Shown: piece after piece, positions 44,445-49,987 of the stretch
Layout: each line of letters opens with the position of its first letter
Numbering within the stretch: the first letter of the stretch is position 1
Source of the DNA: Thermoplasmata archaeon
GTDB taxonomy: Archaea; Thermoplasmatota; Thermoplasmata; RBG-16-68-12; SOIM01
Reading direction: 5' to 3'
Assembly: GCA_023140195.1 (NCBI GenBank)
Contig: JAGLME010000018.1
Location: 124,001-188,000 of the forward strand
DNA length: 64,000 nucleotides
Made by a program: the position numbers and the translations under genes
The notes under the pieces: model-generated
The model's database searches: none
What the model was told of the DNA's origin: nothing
What the model saw: only the letters and a program-made list of their open reading frames with translations

Positions 44445-45047
44445 TTGAAGGTTGAGCTTGTTAGATACACTCACGACCCCGTCGAGGCAGCGGGAAGGGC
44501 CGGCGGCGTATGCTACGACAAGGAAGAGAAAGAGGACTACGGCAAGTTCATCCAGGGGATCGTTCGGAGTGGGCACGAGTCCGTCATCGAACATGTGGTT
44601 TTCACTTTCAGGGTAGAGGGCGTCAGCAGGGCGTGCACTCATCAACTGGTCAGGCACAGGATCGCATCATATTCACAGAGAAGCCAGAGGTACGTGGACG
44701 AGGGGGAGTTCGACTATGTCATACCCCCCAGCGTTCACCGATCAGAAGAGGCTAGGAAGGAGTTTGAACAGACAATGGACTTGCTGATAGGCGAATACGA
44801 GAAACTGAGGGACATGGGAGTTCCCAAAGAAGATGCACGGTTCGTTCTTCCCAATGCATGCACTACGACCATAGTCGTCACCATGAACGCACGGTCATTG
44901 AGGAACTTTCTGAGGGTTAGGCTGGAGAAGCACGCTCAGTGGGAGATCAGACAGCTAGCACAGGAGATGTTCGACCTGGTCAAAGAGGTCGCACCGCCGC
45001 TTTTTGAGGACCTTCAATCCTTGAGGGACACCGGAAGAGAGGAGTAG
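44445..45047 (+). CDS. thyX: FAD-dependent thymidylate synthase
   Basis: 200 residues, TTG start. The ThyX signature RHRIASYSQRSQR is at residues 70-82. It makes dTMP from dUMP with methylene-tetrahydrofolate and a flavin. SGHESVIEHVVFTFRVEGVS and the C-terminal HAQWEIRQLA match the family. The start is supported by homology of MKVELVRYTHDPVEA and by an AT-rich box (ACAAACTATTT) about 40 bp upstream. It precedes priS by 52 bp. Confidence 0.94.
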   Translation: MKVELVRYTHDPVEAAGRAGGVCYDKEEKEDYGKFIQGIVRSGHESVIEHVVFTFRVEGVSRACTHQLVRHRIASYSQRSQRYVDEGEFDYVIPPSVHRSEEARKEFEQTMDLLIGEYEKLRDMGVPKEDARFVLPNACTTTIVVTMNARSLRNFLRVRLEKHAQWEIRQLAQEMFDLVKEVAPPLFEDLQSLRDTGREE

Positions 45048-45099: not shown

Positions 45100-46308
45100 A
45101 TGAAAGGTGGGGAGACTCCTAGGAAGACGATCGATTTCATCAAGGGACGGTTCAAGGACTACTACGATGAGGTTGAGCTGTACCTGCCCGAGAGGTTCGG
45201 CCGGAGGGAGTTCGGCTTCATGTTCTTCGATGCGGACTACGTTCAGAGGCACATGAACTTCGCCACCAAGAACGAGATCAAGCAGTACCTGGTCAATAGG
45301 ATGCCGGCCCACGTTTATCATTCAGCAGCATACTACTCCAAACCTGGAGCCCCCACGATGGTCCGGAAAGATTGGCTGGGGGCCGATCTGATATTCGACC
45401 TCGATGCCGATCATGTTATCGGGGCCAGGAAGATGACATACGAACAGATGCTCGGTGTGGTCAAGACAGAGACGATGAAGCTCATAGACGATTTCTTGGT
45501 AGGAGATTTCGGTTTCGAAGAAAGGGACCTTGTCGTGACTTTCTCTGGTGGAAGGGGGTATCACATTCACATCCGTGACCCTCGCGTATGGACACTCTCC
45601 AGCCATGAAAGAAGGGAGATTGTGGACTACATCCTTGGAACGGACATGGACGAGGAAGCCATCTTCGTTAAGAGCCCCTTTGACCGGACGCCATACGGGT
45701 TGAAGTACAAGTTCGAGATGCCCGCCGTGGACGAGGTGGGGTGGAGGGGCCGGATCGCCAGAGGAATAGTGGAAGAGGTTGAACTGTTGAAGGAAATGGG
45801 GAAGGGCGAGGCCCTGGCCAGGTTGAAGGGCTTCGAAGGAGTGGGACACTCTACCGCCAAGGAGCTTTACGACATCCTTTTCGAAGGAGAGAATGGCAAG
45901 ACCGGATACGACTACATCAAACAGGGTAATCTGGACATATTCCCTGGAGACAGATATCTGAACCGTTTCAAGAAGGGGTTTCTGAGCATTGTCATGGACA
46001 CAAGGAGCGGGAAGACCGATGAGCCAGTCACATCCGATGTCAAGAGGCTCATAAGGCTCCCAACCTCTCTGCACGGCAAGACAGGATTCAGAGTTGTACT
46101 TCTATCAAGATCGGAATTGGACGATTTCGATCCCCTTGTTGAAGCGGTCCCAGCAACATGGTCCGATGACGAAGTTGTTCTCAAGGGAAGGTCCAAGGCC
46201 TCCGTCAATTTGAAAGGGGAAACTTTTAATTTGGAAGATGACATAATACGACTCCCCGAATACGCAGCCATGTTTTTCATGTGCAGAGGCATGGCGACCC
46301 TTGCGTAG
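45100..46308 (+). CDS. priS: DNA primase small (catalytic) subunit
   Basis: 402 residues. The catalytic Asp pair is in LIFDLDADH (D100, D102), and SGGRGYHIHI follows, both hallmarks of the archaeal/eukaryotic primase Prim1 subunit. It makes primers for replication with PriL, which is not in this window. The C-terminal part (about 320-390) has LIRLPTSLHGKTGFRV, also conserved. The gene ends close to a membrane TPR protein that starts ten bases after its stop. Confidence 0.95.
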   Translation: MKGGETPRKTIDFIKGRFKDYYDEVELYLPERFGRREFGFMFFDADYVQRHMNFATKNEIKQYLVNRMPAHVYHSAAYYSKPGAPTMVRKDWLGADLIFDLDADHVIGARKMTYEQMLGVVKTETMKLIDDFLVGDFGFEERDLVVTFSGGRGYHIHIRDPRVWTLSSHERREIVDYILGTDMDEEAIFVKSPFDRTPYGLKYKFEMPAVDEVGWRGRIARGIVEEVELLKEMGKGEALARLKGFEGVGHSTAKELYDILFEGENGKTGYDYIKQGNLDIFPGDRYLNRFKKGFLSIVMDTRSGKTDEPVTSDVKRLIRLPTSLHGKTGFRVVLLSRSELDDFDPLVEAVPATWSDDEVVLKGRSKASVNLKGETFNLEDDIIRLPEYAAMFFMCRGMATLA

Positions 46309-46318
46309 GAGAGATGGG

Positions 46319-48325
46319 ATGAGGAGATTCCGAGACAGGCTGGAAGGCGGCTACAGAGTGGTCCGCATACGGAAATTGAAGCACTTGATGTACTTGATTT
46401 TCGGAGTTCTCATACTCGTCGTCGGCATCCTCATGATGGTCCTCAATGGGCTGACACTTGACCCCTTCTTCCTTCCGCTTGACATGTTCCTTCTCGTGAC
46501 CCTCTACTTCTTGATCGTCGTCACCGGTCTGAACTTCCTCTTCAGGAACCTCGAGATCAAGCATAACGCCAGGAACAGCCAGAAGCACCTGATGGCCAGG
46601 AACTCACAGAGGACCGGGATAGCGATAATAGGGATCTGCGCATTCGTGGCGATCATCATCATGCTCCCAGCAACGGCGAGTTCCGCAAATGAGATACTAT
46701 CGTTCGAGGGAAGGGACGCGGTCACACTTGCCGGAGATCGGTTCGTGCGGAACTTCGAAAACCAGGACAGGCTGGGTCTTTTCAAGACCGAGTGGGTCGA
46801 CGTTCGGGTGACAATCGGTCAGGCGATCGTCCAGTTGTGCGAGAAAGCAGATTTTGGGGCAGACGATGTCTGTGACAATCCGTACTTCGAGATGCCTTTG
46901 ACCGCCAACATACCGAGGAGGATCCAAGTTCCGGAAGAAGGCTACGTCCAACTCGCTCTGATTATCACCAACCAGCCCGGTGGTCCATCCACTTTCAGCT
47001 ATCACGTCGAGAGGAATCCAGCTCCCGTCTTCATTGGTCTCCAACCGCTCCTCATATGCTTGGCCTTCATAGTCTTCAACTCGGCATGGACGGTCTATCT
47101 TCAGCCAATCAAGAGAAGATATGCGACTACCTCGGTGTACAGCGAGGACTACATCGCTCCGACGGTTGCCGAGACCGCGTTAAGGACCGGTGCCCAGGCC
47201 CAGAGGCGTCCTGCCCCCGAAGCAGTACGTTTCGGACCCACTAGGCCCAAGATACGTAGAAGAGAGGCTGCGGCCCCCCCACTGCAGGATGAGGATGCCC
47301 TCCCACCTCCGCCTTTGCCGGGAACGGCCCATCCACTTCCCAAAGGAGATTCCCTCAACGAGCTCATGATCATCATGGATTCCGAAGGTGACAAGAAGAG
47401 CACCATAGGCTTTCTAAGGAACCTGATCGGAATGGACCCGGTGAACAAGGACGCCCTTTACCATCTCGGGGATGTTTACCAGCAGGAAGGCAACTACCAG
47501 TTCGCATTCAACGAGTACGATAGGATCACCAAGATAGACCCCAAGGATGACCGGGCCTGGGTCAAGAGAGGGGAGGCACTCATGCCGTTGGAGAGGGAGC
47601 TCGAAGCCGTGGGCAGCTTCAAACACGCGATCGATCTCAATGCCGAAAACCCAGCCGCCACAGAATGGCTCAGAAGCATCAAGCGTGAGAACCAGAAGCT
47701 GATGGCAAGAGCGATAGACCGATCCACGAATAAGGACTTCAATGGGGCGATCGAGCTCTATGACAGGATCCTGCGAAGAGCCCCCGTGAACGTACAGGCC
47801 CTGCTGGGAAAGGGGACCATGTACAGGCGACTGGAGAAATGGCCTGCTTCCCTGGAGGCTCTCAACAAGGTCCTGGAGATTGACCCGGAGAATGTCGCGG
47901 CCATGCGTAACAAGGTCGAGGTATTCGAGAGTGTGATGAGCTGGGAAGAGGCCTTGGATTGCTACGACGAGATGATCGAGAGGGCGCCGGACAATTACCT
48001 GGACTGGGTGAGAAGGGGCGATGTCCTGTTCGAGCTCGGGAGGACCGAGGACGCCATTGAGAGCTACAGAGAGGCTGAGAAACTGAACCCCGACTCGGAA
48101 CGGGTGCAGAAGAGGATCAAGCTTCTGACCGCTCCGGAGATGGATGAGACGGTGAAGAAGTTCACCAAGATCCCCGGTATCGGCAGGTCAAAGGCCATAG
48201 CTCTGTTCGAGGCGGGCTACGAGTCGGTGGACGATCTGATGAAGACCGGCGTGAAGAAGCTGGCGAAGGTCAAGGGCATCAGCAGGAGCTTGGCCAAGAA
48301 GATAAAGCAGCACCTGAAGGATTGA
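46319..48325 (+). CDS. Membrane protein with TPR repeats and C-terminal helix-hairpin-helix
   Basis: 668 residues from ATG 46319, preceded by GGAGAG; an in-frame TTG at 46301 would overlap priS. Four helices (about 23-44, 52-72, 99-119, 237-258); the segment between the third and fourth (about 120-235) is predicted outside. The cytoplasmic part begins with a Pro/Arg-rich linker (about 280-340), then six or more TPR units (about 345-600; for example ALYHLGDVYQQEGNYQFAF). The last 55 residues, IPGIGRSKAIALFEAGYESV and ISRSLAKKIKQHL, form two helix-hairpin-helix motifs, a fold that binds DNA without sequence preference. Its role is unknown; it could link a membrane complex to DNA. Confidence 0.8.
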   Translation: MRRFRDRLEGGYRVVRIRKLKHLMYLIFGVLILVVGILMMVLNGLTLDPFFLPLDMFLLVTLYFLIVVTGLNFLFRNLEIKHNARNSQKHLMARNSQRTGIAIIGICAFVAIIIMLPATASSANEILSFEGRDAVTLAGDRFVRNFENQDRLGLFKTEWVDVRVTIGQAIVQLCEKADFGADDVCDNPYFEMPLTANIPRRIQVPEEGYVQLALIITNQPGGPSTFSYHVERNPAPVFIGLQPLLICLAFIVFNSAWTVYLQPIKRRYATTSVYSEDYIAPTVAETALRTGAQAQRRPAPEAVRFGPTRPKIRRREAAAPPLQDEDALPPPPLPGTAHPLPKGDSLNELMIIMDSEGDKKSTIGFLRNLIGMDPVNKDALYHLGDVYQQEGNYQFAFNEYDRITKIDPKDDRAWVKRGEALMPLERELEAVGSFKHAIDLNAENPAATEWLRSIKRENQKLMARAIDRSTNKDFNGAIELYDRILRRAPVNVQALLGKGTMYRRLEKWPASLEALNKVLEIDPENVAAMRNKVEVFESVMSWEEALDCYDEMIERAPDNYLDWVRRGDVLFELGRTEDAIESYREAEKLNPDSERVQKRIKLLTAPEMDETVKKFTKIPGIGRSKAIALFEAGYESVDDLMKTGVKKLAKVKGISRSLAKKIKQHLKD

Positions 48326-48376: not shown

Positions 48377-48616
48377 ATGAAAGCGTTCAGAATCAAAGGC
48401 GAGTTTCTCATGAAGGACAAGTGGCAGAACTTCGTCAAAGAGATCGCTAGCAAGAACAAGAAGACGGCGACCGAGAGTCTGCTCTCGGACATGGGCGGAA
48501 GGCACAGGACCAAAAGGAAGAACATAAAGATCCACGATATCAAGGAGCTCAAGCTCGATGAGATAGAGAGCCCCTTGGTCAGGGAAGAGCTGGCGGGTGA
48601 CAAGGGTGGCAAATGA
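48377..48616 (+). CDS. rpl18a: Ribosomal protein eL20 (L18Ae/LX)
   Basis: 79 residues, typical of archaeal LX. MKAFRIKGEFLMKDKWQNF and the end of the domain SDMGGRHRTKRKNIKIHDI are characteristic; the protein binds the large subunit near 5S/23S rRNA. It heads the conserved archaeal order eL20, prefoldin alpha, ftsY. Its last 20 bases overlap the pfdA start region. Confidence 0.93.
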   Translation: MKAFRIKGEFLMKDKWQNFVKEIASKNKKTATESLLSDMGGRHRTKRKNIKIHDIKELKLDEIESPLVREELAGDKGGK

Positions 48617-49031
48617 GGAGTTCCAGAAGGCCGCTACCGAATACGAGATGTTCCGTTCGCAGTTGGAAGCGCTGGCCCAGCAGAACGAACTGCTGACCAT
48701 GTCGCTGGAAGAGCATATGAGGGCCAAGGAGACCATGACCCGGTTCCAGGAGGGTGGAAAGGGCTCGGAGATACTTGTTCCAGTGGGCGCCAACTCGTTT
48801 CTCTTCGCCGAGATCAAGGTGCCGGACAAGGCGATAATCGGAATAGGTTCTGACCTTACCGTGGAGGAGGACATGGGAGATGCCATCAAACGTCTGGACG
48901 GAAAGATAGAGGACCTCAACAGCGCCCTCAAGAGCTTGGCGGAGAAGATAGCGGAGGTCAGCCAGAATGCGGAGGAGAAGTCCGAGATCGTGAGGACGCT
49001 TTACGCGCAGGCGCAGCAGGGGACGGAGTAG
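48597..49031 (+). CDS. pfdA: Prefoldin alpha subunit
   Basis: 144 residues, GTG start at 48597 (GTG 48606 also possible). Two long coiled coils (about 5-50 and 95-140) flank the beta hairpin ILVPVGANSFLFAEI, the prefoldin alpha core. The hexamer (two alpha, four beta) delivers unfolded proteins to the thermosome. The overlap with eL20 and the 23-bp gap to ftsY mark one operon. Confidence 0.93.
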   Translation: MTRVANEEFQKAATEYEMFRSQLEALAQQNELLTMSLEEHMRAKETMTRFQEGGKGSEILVPVGANSFLFAEIKVPDKAIIGIGSDLTVEEDMGDAIKRLDGKIEDLNSALKSLAEKIAEVSQNAEEKSEIVRTLYAQAQQGTE

Positions 49032-49054: not shown

Positions 49055-49987
49055 ATGTTCAAGGCTCTTAGAGATAGACTCAAGGTCTGGAAGAAACAGG
49101 CCGCCACCGAGCTCGATGATGTCATATCCGAGGACAGCGGGAGGAAGATAAAGGAATCCAAGCTGGAGGATTTTTTGTGGGACCTCGAGATGGTGCTGAT
49201 GGAGGCCGATGTCGCCCTGCCAGTCATTGTGGAGATCAAGTCGAGGATAAAGGAGGACCTCATTGGCAAGAGGGTCACCAAGAAGGTCGGTTTCTCGGAA
49301 GGGATCGAGATCGCTCTGAGGAACGCTATCAAGGACGTCATGCTGGTCGAACCTCTTGATTTCATTCAGTTCATAAAGGATCATGAGAAGCCTGTGGTGA
49401 TAATGTTCGTTGGTGTGAACGGCACGGGCAAGACCACGTCCATCGCCAAGCTGGCCCATTTGCTGAGGAAGAACCAACTGTCATCTGTATTCGCAGCATC
49501 CGACACATTCAGAGCAGGCGCGATAGAGCAGCTGGAGAAGCATTCGTTGAACCTGGGAATAAGGGTCATCAAGCATCAGTCGGGGTCTGACCCGGCCGCA
49601 GTTTCGTACGATGCGGTGGAACACGCCAAGGCCAGAAGGAAGGACGTCGTCCTCATTGACACAGCTGGGAGGATGCAGACCAACGTCAACCTCATGGACG
49701 AGATGAAGAAGATCAAGAAGGTGGCGAACCCGGACCTGATAGTGTTTGTCGGTGACGCTCTCGCAGGCAACGATGCCGTGGAGCAGGCGGTCAAGTTCAA
49801 TGAAGCGGTGGGGATCGATGCGGCCATTCTCTCCAAGATCGACGCGGACGCCAAAGGCGGCGCTGCACTTTCCATCACACACTCTATCGGAAAACCAATC
49901 CTCTTTGTCGGAACCGGGCAGGAATATGACGACATAGCATTCTTCGACGCAAAATGGATGGTAGAGAGGCTCTTCGAAGGCAAGTAG
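49055..49987 (+). CDS. ftsY: Signal recognition particle receptor FtsY
   Basis: 310 residues. A short N-terminal charged helix replaces the long acidic region of bacterial FtsY, as in many archaea; the NG domain follows with the P loop GVNGTGKTT (120-128), DTFRAGAIEQL, DTAGRMQ and SKIDADAKGG. It docks SRP-ribosome complexes at the membrane. The final AKWMVERLF helix is standard. Converges with a GT2 gene, two bases apart. Confidence 0.96.
   Translation: MFKALRDRLKVWKKQAATELDDVISEDSGRKIKESKLEDFLWDLEMVLMEADVALPVIVEIKSRIKEDLIGKRVTKKVGFSEGIEIALRNAIKDVMLVEPLDFIQFIKDHEKPVVIMFVGVNGTGKTTSIAKLAHLLRKNQLSSVFAASDTFRAGAIEQLEKHSLNLGIRVIKHQSGSDPAAVSYDAVEHAKARRKDVVLIDTAGRMQTNVNLMDEMKKIKKVANPDLIVFVGDALAGNDAVEQAVKFNEAVGIDAAILSKIDADAKGGAALSITHSIGKPILFVGTGQEYDDIAFFDAKWMVERLFEGK

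Follow-up and report, generated by a model that had tools for sequence, protein, structure and literature searches.

In the genome of a Thermoplasmata archaeon, the gene for the small subunit of DNA primase, priS, is followed by a gene for a membrane protein that ends in a helix-hairpin-helix (HhH) domain, and the question raised by this locus is what such a protein does beside the primase. The initial annotation of our window, the stretch of 64,000 nucleotides that was analysed as a whole (contig JAGLME010000018.1, positions 124,001 to 188,000), had suggested that the protein, as a membrane-bound component able to touch DNA, could tether the replisome or the chromosome to the membrane. To our knowledge, little is known about the way in which archaea fix their chromosome or their translation machinery to the membrane.

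The membrane core and its C-terminal arm

The gene, here referred to as TMN, begins ten bases behind priS, as had been stated: the priS stop codon TAG occupies positions 46306-46308, and a GGAGA sequence overlaps this stop ahead of the ATG at 46319 (Table 1). We infer that the two genes are probably co-transcribed and translationally coupled. The nearest solved structures to the primase are archaeal PriS proteins; in comparison with the solved PriS 1zt2, about 100 residues are additional at residues ~182-305, and a weak HhH-like stretch lies within this region in some relatives. An HhH-like insert had no Pfam support in the window's primase and was rejected.

Table 1. Genes and protein regions at the priS locus of the window, with the matches or model values that support them.
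Feature	Coordinates	Strand	Support and remarks
thyX	44445..45047	+	TIGR02170 E 1e-58; upstream neighbour, such placement only in families f1, f2
priS, DNA primase small subunit, 402 aa	45100..46308	+	PF01896 E 3e-24, NF001639 E 5e-99, TIGR00335 above cut-off
Membrane TPR-HhH gene (TMN), 668 aa	46319..48325	+	ATG 10 nt past priS stop
TMN core, residues 1-276	46319..47146	+	AlphaFold2 pLDDT 89, pTM 0.77; alignment of 34 homologues; outside Pfam
Flexible Pro-rich linker, predicted cytoplasmic, residues ~277-343	47147..47347	+	pLDDT <50 for much of it
TPR array, residues 344-604	47348..48130	+	Pfam TPR_1 E 5e-26; pLDDT mostly >90
Two-motif helix-hairpin-helix, residues 606-668	48134..48322	+	HHH_5 (PF14520) E 3e-14 at 614-668
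Ribosomal protein L18Ae/LX (L18a)	48377..48616	+	PF01775 E 2e-18; conserved neighbour downstream
Prefoldin alpha subunit (PfdA)	48597..49031	+	TIGR00293 E 3e-28
ftsY, SRP receptor	49055..49987	+	TIGR00064 E 7e-98

The description of the product as a four-helix membrane protein with TPR repeats and a double HhH was likewise confirmed, as hydropathy gave four hydrophobic transmembrane (TM) segments, AlphaFold2 modelled four TM helices, and the Pfam matches recovered the TPR repeats and both HhH motifs. The core begins with a basic N-terminal helix, TM1, a conserved short loop, TM2, a basic loop on the predicted cytoplasmic side and TM3, and continues with a putatively exoplasmic beta-sandwich (129-234), TM4, and a tail that closes with a SIYS-like motif. 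The AlphaFold2 model, made from the 34 aligned relatives, places helices at residues 2-42, 54-82, 86-115, and 241-269, and eight strands within 129-234. Because Arg and Lys abound in the N-terminal segment, the TM2-TM3 loop, and the tail behind TM4, the positive-inside rule lets us read both termini and the TPR-HhH part as cytoplasmic and the beta domain as lying outside. Pairwise identity is highest in the TM1-TM2 loop (0.51), reaches 0.40 in both the cytoplasmic N-terminus and the cytoplasmic loop, and is lowest in the exoplasmic domain (0.18).

Behind the core, a linker that is less conserved than the TPR or HhH regions leads to the TPR array, which scores 89.8 bits with TPR_1 against a cut-off of 27.8 and is matched by many other Pfam TPR models. 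Its fold matches are consensus TPR proteins and the TPR domain of O-GlcNAc transferase, and a fold search with the full-length model returned nothing besides such TPR matches. The HhH region, which the full-length model places beyond the TPR array, reaches 53.5 bits with HHH_5 against a cut-off of 27, with conserved hairpin glycines.

The core itself could not be assigned to any described family. In the Pfam search it had no family above the cut-off, the best match in the window being 7TMR-DISM_7TM with 20.5 bits against 29, and DUF2207_C, 7TMR-DISM, and similar Pfam membrane families all stayed below their curated cut-offs; among 34 TMN members, each family matched was common to at most three. 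A search of solved structures by sequence found no significant relative of the core, and a fold search left the four-helix part without a solved homologue and gave just generic, weak jelly-roll matches to the beta-sandwich. These include the GOLD-domain protein SPF/SEC14L2 (1o6u; TMq 0.31, rmsd 3.1 Å, 111 columns) and other jelly-rolls, to which no sequence similarity was found and in which the four-helix arrangement is unmatched; the likeness is generic, and too weak for a GOLD assignment of the exoplasmic domain to be claimed. A ligand-binding, enzymatic, or known signalling domain was not seen in the protein. TMN is an uncharacterised membrane-protein family of the Thermoplasmatota that is absent from Pfam.

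Linkage with priS and the wider gene string

Among 200 genomes sampled from the class, the TMN core was detected in 111, PriS in 191, and L18a in 154, and since orthologues of the core family occur throughout the class, the family is not a chance product. For the linkage we used the 108 clear TMN cases. Where both genes are on the same contig, PriS stands directly upstream of TMN in the same orientation in 80 of 82 cases, which come from 16 of 24 families, and the linkage whose conservation the initial annotation had proposed to check is hence conserved. The two exceptions are G017, in which PriS and TMN are 5.1 kb apart, and G004, whose contig contains a run of N; a genuinely split TMN gene in G004 was dismissed, as the run of N at this spot indicates a scaffold fault. 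PriS is on a separate contig in a further 21 TMN genomes, which include fragmented assemblies and clear separations. The junctions that were read in the window's order have gaps of -4 to +12 nt, with a 4-nt overlap in f2. ThyX, TraB, and PCMT, which are encoded upstream of PriS, served as an internal control: they are kept in far fewer families and change much faster than the downstream TMN, and PriS and TMN are therefore held together more tightly than the background.

Some individual loci deserve mention. In one MAG, G019, the final codons of priS are missing together with the stop, and the frame continues into the TMN protein as a single primase-membrane fusion (L070, G019:C156, 8755-12015); the sister genome G034 has a normal priS stop and a 12-nt gap; the single frame may be an assembly error. 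PriS matches at identical coordinates in G214:C32 and G248:C44, two MAGs that belong to different families, suggest a shared or contaminating contig. A profile scan of wider genome contigs with one peptide pattern found 11 TMN loci, all of them in archaeal MAG records assigned to Methanomassiliicoccales, Thermoplasmata, Thermoplasmatota, Euryarchaeota, or plain 'archaeon'.

The downstream side of TMN is conserved as well. In 64 of 65 same-contig cases, L18a follows within 5 kb in the same orientation, mostly with PfdA and FtsY behind it. No TMN was detected in f22, f15, or the majority of f11, all of which keep priS, and in the TMN-less f11 genomes PriS often directly precedes L18a with a gap of ~160-190 nt, suggesting that an order PriS-TMN-L18a-PfdA-FtsY is ancestral and that TMN was lost later. 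G037 keeps TMN-L18a-PfdA-FtsY without PriS, and f12 and f20 keep PriS-TMN without a close L18a. In addition, 54 of the 108 genomes have, as a convergent neighbour of TMN, a gene for a LipS1-type lipoyl synthase (NF053742, E 1e-74) (G228, G236, G232, G048, and genomes of f8 and f12 are among those that have it downstream). It stays by TMN in f17, f18, and f21 though PriS is on another contig, and it lies beside PriS in five TMN-less genomes (G125, G133, G173, G282, and G288), with L18a behind in four of the five; LipS1 is best seen as a member of the same ancestral string. Taken together, these gene orders point to an ancestral housekeeping string, PriS-TMN-(LipS1)-L18a-PfdA-FtsY, that would have been eroded differently by lineage.

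Partners also vary: gcvPB adjoins TMN in f9 and f56, ABC transporter ATPases are near TMN in f17, and at two loci outside the class (L139 and L142, in G064 and G075) a TMN orthologue of ~280 aa stands, away from priS, directly before a gene that we take to be purP-like from its N-terminus. This erosion of the string, the changing partners, and the direct succession of PriS and L18a in genomes without TMN would be expected if TMN were a conserved neighbour only, with an inherited position and a function unrelated to either side, for example as an envelope-stress or transport-associated receptor. We consider this unlikely, though it deserves to be kept in view, because TMN persists while the genes upstream of PriS turn over much faster. 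The LipS1 and GcvPB neighbours could also hint at a role in lipoate or glycine-cleavage metabolism, and the persistence of LipS1 beside TMN on contigs that do not carry PriS would agree with it. Such a role is nevertheless highly improbable: LipS1 is on the opposite strand, f3-f6 and f14 have TMN without a LipS1 match, and LipS1 adjoins PriS in the five genomes that have no TMN.

Linkage and HhH are decoupled

Not all TMN proteins carry the arm. The protein stops just past the SIYS-like motif, at ~275 aa, in f8, f12, f14, f23, and several further families, and in the window's order, f13, f17, f21, and f56 it extends past this motif into the linker, TPR, and HhH regions. Outside the window's order, the membrane core alone is present in most of the linked families, and the f17/f21/f56 clade has the TPR-HhH arm with priS elsewhere. 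On the PriS tree, a quick tree with SH-aLRT support only and with open deep forks, at least 3 changes are required for the TPR-HhH label, and 4 by tool count for the linked state. Linkage therefore follows the membrane core and not the HhH; the two are decoupled, and what travels with the primase is the ~275-residue core. In G013 the protein is split over two neighbouring genes that lie between priS and L18a, one for TMN (273 aa) and one for TPR-HhH (445 aa) (L069, G013:C274, 8474-10657), so that the two halves work as modules. Distant TMN paralogues in another class of the phylum have zinc ribbons (G064) or an HhH-less TPR region (G134) as their cytoplasmic parts.

With respect to the HhH itself, the initial annotation had considered that it might lack basic hairpin residues and serve protein contacts only. 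Basic residues are not lacking: K or R is kept at position 625 in 20, at 652 in 19, and at 656 in 18 of 21 homologues, and nucleic-acid binding by the domain is therefore possible. The domain has a net charge of +7 in the window but of ~0 to +4 in the majority of the other homologues, with values near 0 in many. Sequence matches in the PDB are led by the N-terminal domain of haloarchaeal eL32 (9e-9), followed by NusA (4e-4), Hel308 (8e-4), and RadA (3e-3). The source genome encodes nine HHH_5 proteins, three of which, by our reading of their sequences, resemble the DNA enzymes Hel308, RadA, and PolX. The remaining six comprise the TMN protein itself, a soluble protein with TPR and HhH, two surface proteins of the zinc-ribbon-HhH-TPR-TM type, an IleRS that ends in an HhH-DUF835 tail, and an HhH-KaiC protein. 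HHH_5 thus appears to be used in this genome mostly in scaffold- or signalling-type proteins, as a widely used adaptor, and DNA binding is not to be assumed. Of these, an isoleucyl-tRNA synthetase-like frame runs stop-free into a zinc ribbon-HhH-zinc ribbon-HhH-DUF835 extension (L181, G000:C36, 1264-5784, 1507 aa), and the two surface proteins (L174 and L179, G000:C47 and C28) have an unusual architecture, as they combine zinc-ribbon, HhH, TPR, and VNG-type repeats with one TM segment and a large far-side part.

What do these results mean for the proposed tether, in which the HhH arm would hold DNA, or primase-bound DNA, at the membrane? A tether would be expected to be linked with a replisome gene, and to keep its DNA-binding part along with that linkage; the former was found, the latter was not. 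The adjacency of priS and the conserved basic hairpins speak for it, as do Hel308 and RadA among the weaker PDB matches and the G019 single frame, and the lasting adjacency, the overlap in f2, and the G019 fusion could reflect a real physical link to the primase. On the other hand, TPR and HhH are missing from most linked families outside the window's order, f17/f21/f56 has both without the linkage, f22, f15, and most of f11 have kept priS with no TMN found, the L18a-PfdA-FtsY and LipS1 side is conserved too, the HhH is matched best by ribosomal eL32 and NusA, and its charge is often near neutral. With linkage and HhH decoupled on the PriS tree, the conclusion drawn from their coincidence is weakened, and we now regard a tether as quite improbable. 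An HhH beside priS should accordingly not be read as a replication protein, as the conserved partner is the membrane core.

The same matches and the downstream neighbours raise another option, namely that the cytoplasmic arm docks the large ribosomal subunit or nascent-chain factors near FtsY at the membrane. The close sequence match to eL32, the near-constant L18a with PfdA and FtsY behind it, and the PriS-less string of G037 would suit such a dock. It is nonetheless doubtful, and only a little less so than the tether, since f12 and f20 have PriS-TMN without a close L18a, and since L18a, set off from TMN by 51 nt that include an AT-rich stretch, is probably transcribed from a promoter of its own.

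A putative membrane platform and its known relatives

Our preferred reading, to which we assign a probability of roughly 0.45 and which is therefore tentative, is that of a modular membrane scaffold or receptor whose predicted cytoplasmic TPR-HhH arm recruits soluble partners, and which is co-expressed with the primase through inherited gene order. The four-TM core, the exoplasmic beta-sandwich, and the conserved basic cytoplasmic segments would together form a putative membrane platform or receptor, and in the window's order, as in two further lineages, the attached arm would most likely bring soluble partners to the membrane, the TPRs by protein contacts and the HhH by putative contacts with nucleic acid or nucleoprotein. 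The arm would come and go on the more widespread core. Co-transcription with priS would bring co-expression with replication and growth, and if the priS neighbourhood is an inherited string, a contact of the TMN protein with the primase would not be required. A bolder version seems to us unlikely, in which a Thermoplasmatota platform co-expressed with primase uses a TPR-HhH arm on the more widespread core to couple the membrane physically to the chromosome or replisome, or to the ribosome; if true, it would be an archaeal membrane-attachment system without a described counterpart. In any case, TMN is a clear candidate family, present in 111 of 200 class genomes and in some relatives outside, with a fixed place beside primase, and its forms with and without the HhH arm, its split genes, and its losses provide a natural experiment.

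The statement of the initial annotation that no counterpart has been described agrees with our search of the open-licence literature, in which neither a priS-adjacent HhH/TPR membrane protein nor a replisome-membrane link in Thermoplasmata was found; a description elsewhere is possible. A PCNA-PriS-Gins15 cluster with ribosomal genes is known in archaea (Berthon et al., 2008, PMC2643942), and as here, it places primase genes beside replication and translation genes. In a term search of the text of that paper, 'membrane', 'ftsY', 'prefoldin', and 'L18' were absent, so that by this search its cluster has no membrane protein beside priS, whereas the partners here are TMN, LipS1, L18a, PfdA, and FtsY. 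The text searched of a survey of conserved archaeal membrane proteins (PMC5898192) mentions no primase, TPR, or HhH.

At the level of domains, RadA, Hel308, the eL32 N-terminus, and NusA have the two-motif HhH module in common with the TMN protein, in which, by contrast, the HhH terminates a membrane protein behind a TPR array. The surface proteins L174 and L179 of the source genome likewise join HhH and TPR to a membrane anchor and have a large part across the membrane, but they differ in their single TM segment, zinc ribbons, N-terminal HhH, and lack of priS linkage. ComEA of competent bacteria is a membrane-anchored HhH DNA receptor with a single TM segment and an extracellular HhH. It is described as a DNA-binding protein required for uptake (PMC9747964). 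The TMN protein resembles ComEA in its membrane anchor and HhH, but it has four TM segments, its HhH is on the predicted cytoplasmic side, and TPRs are placed between the two.
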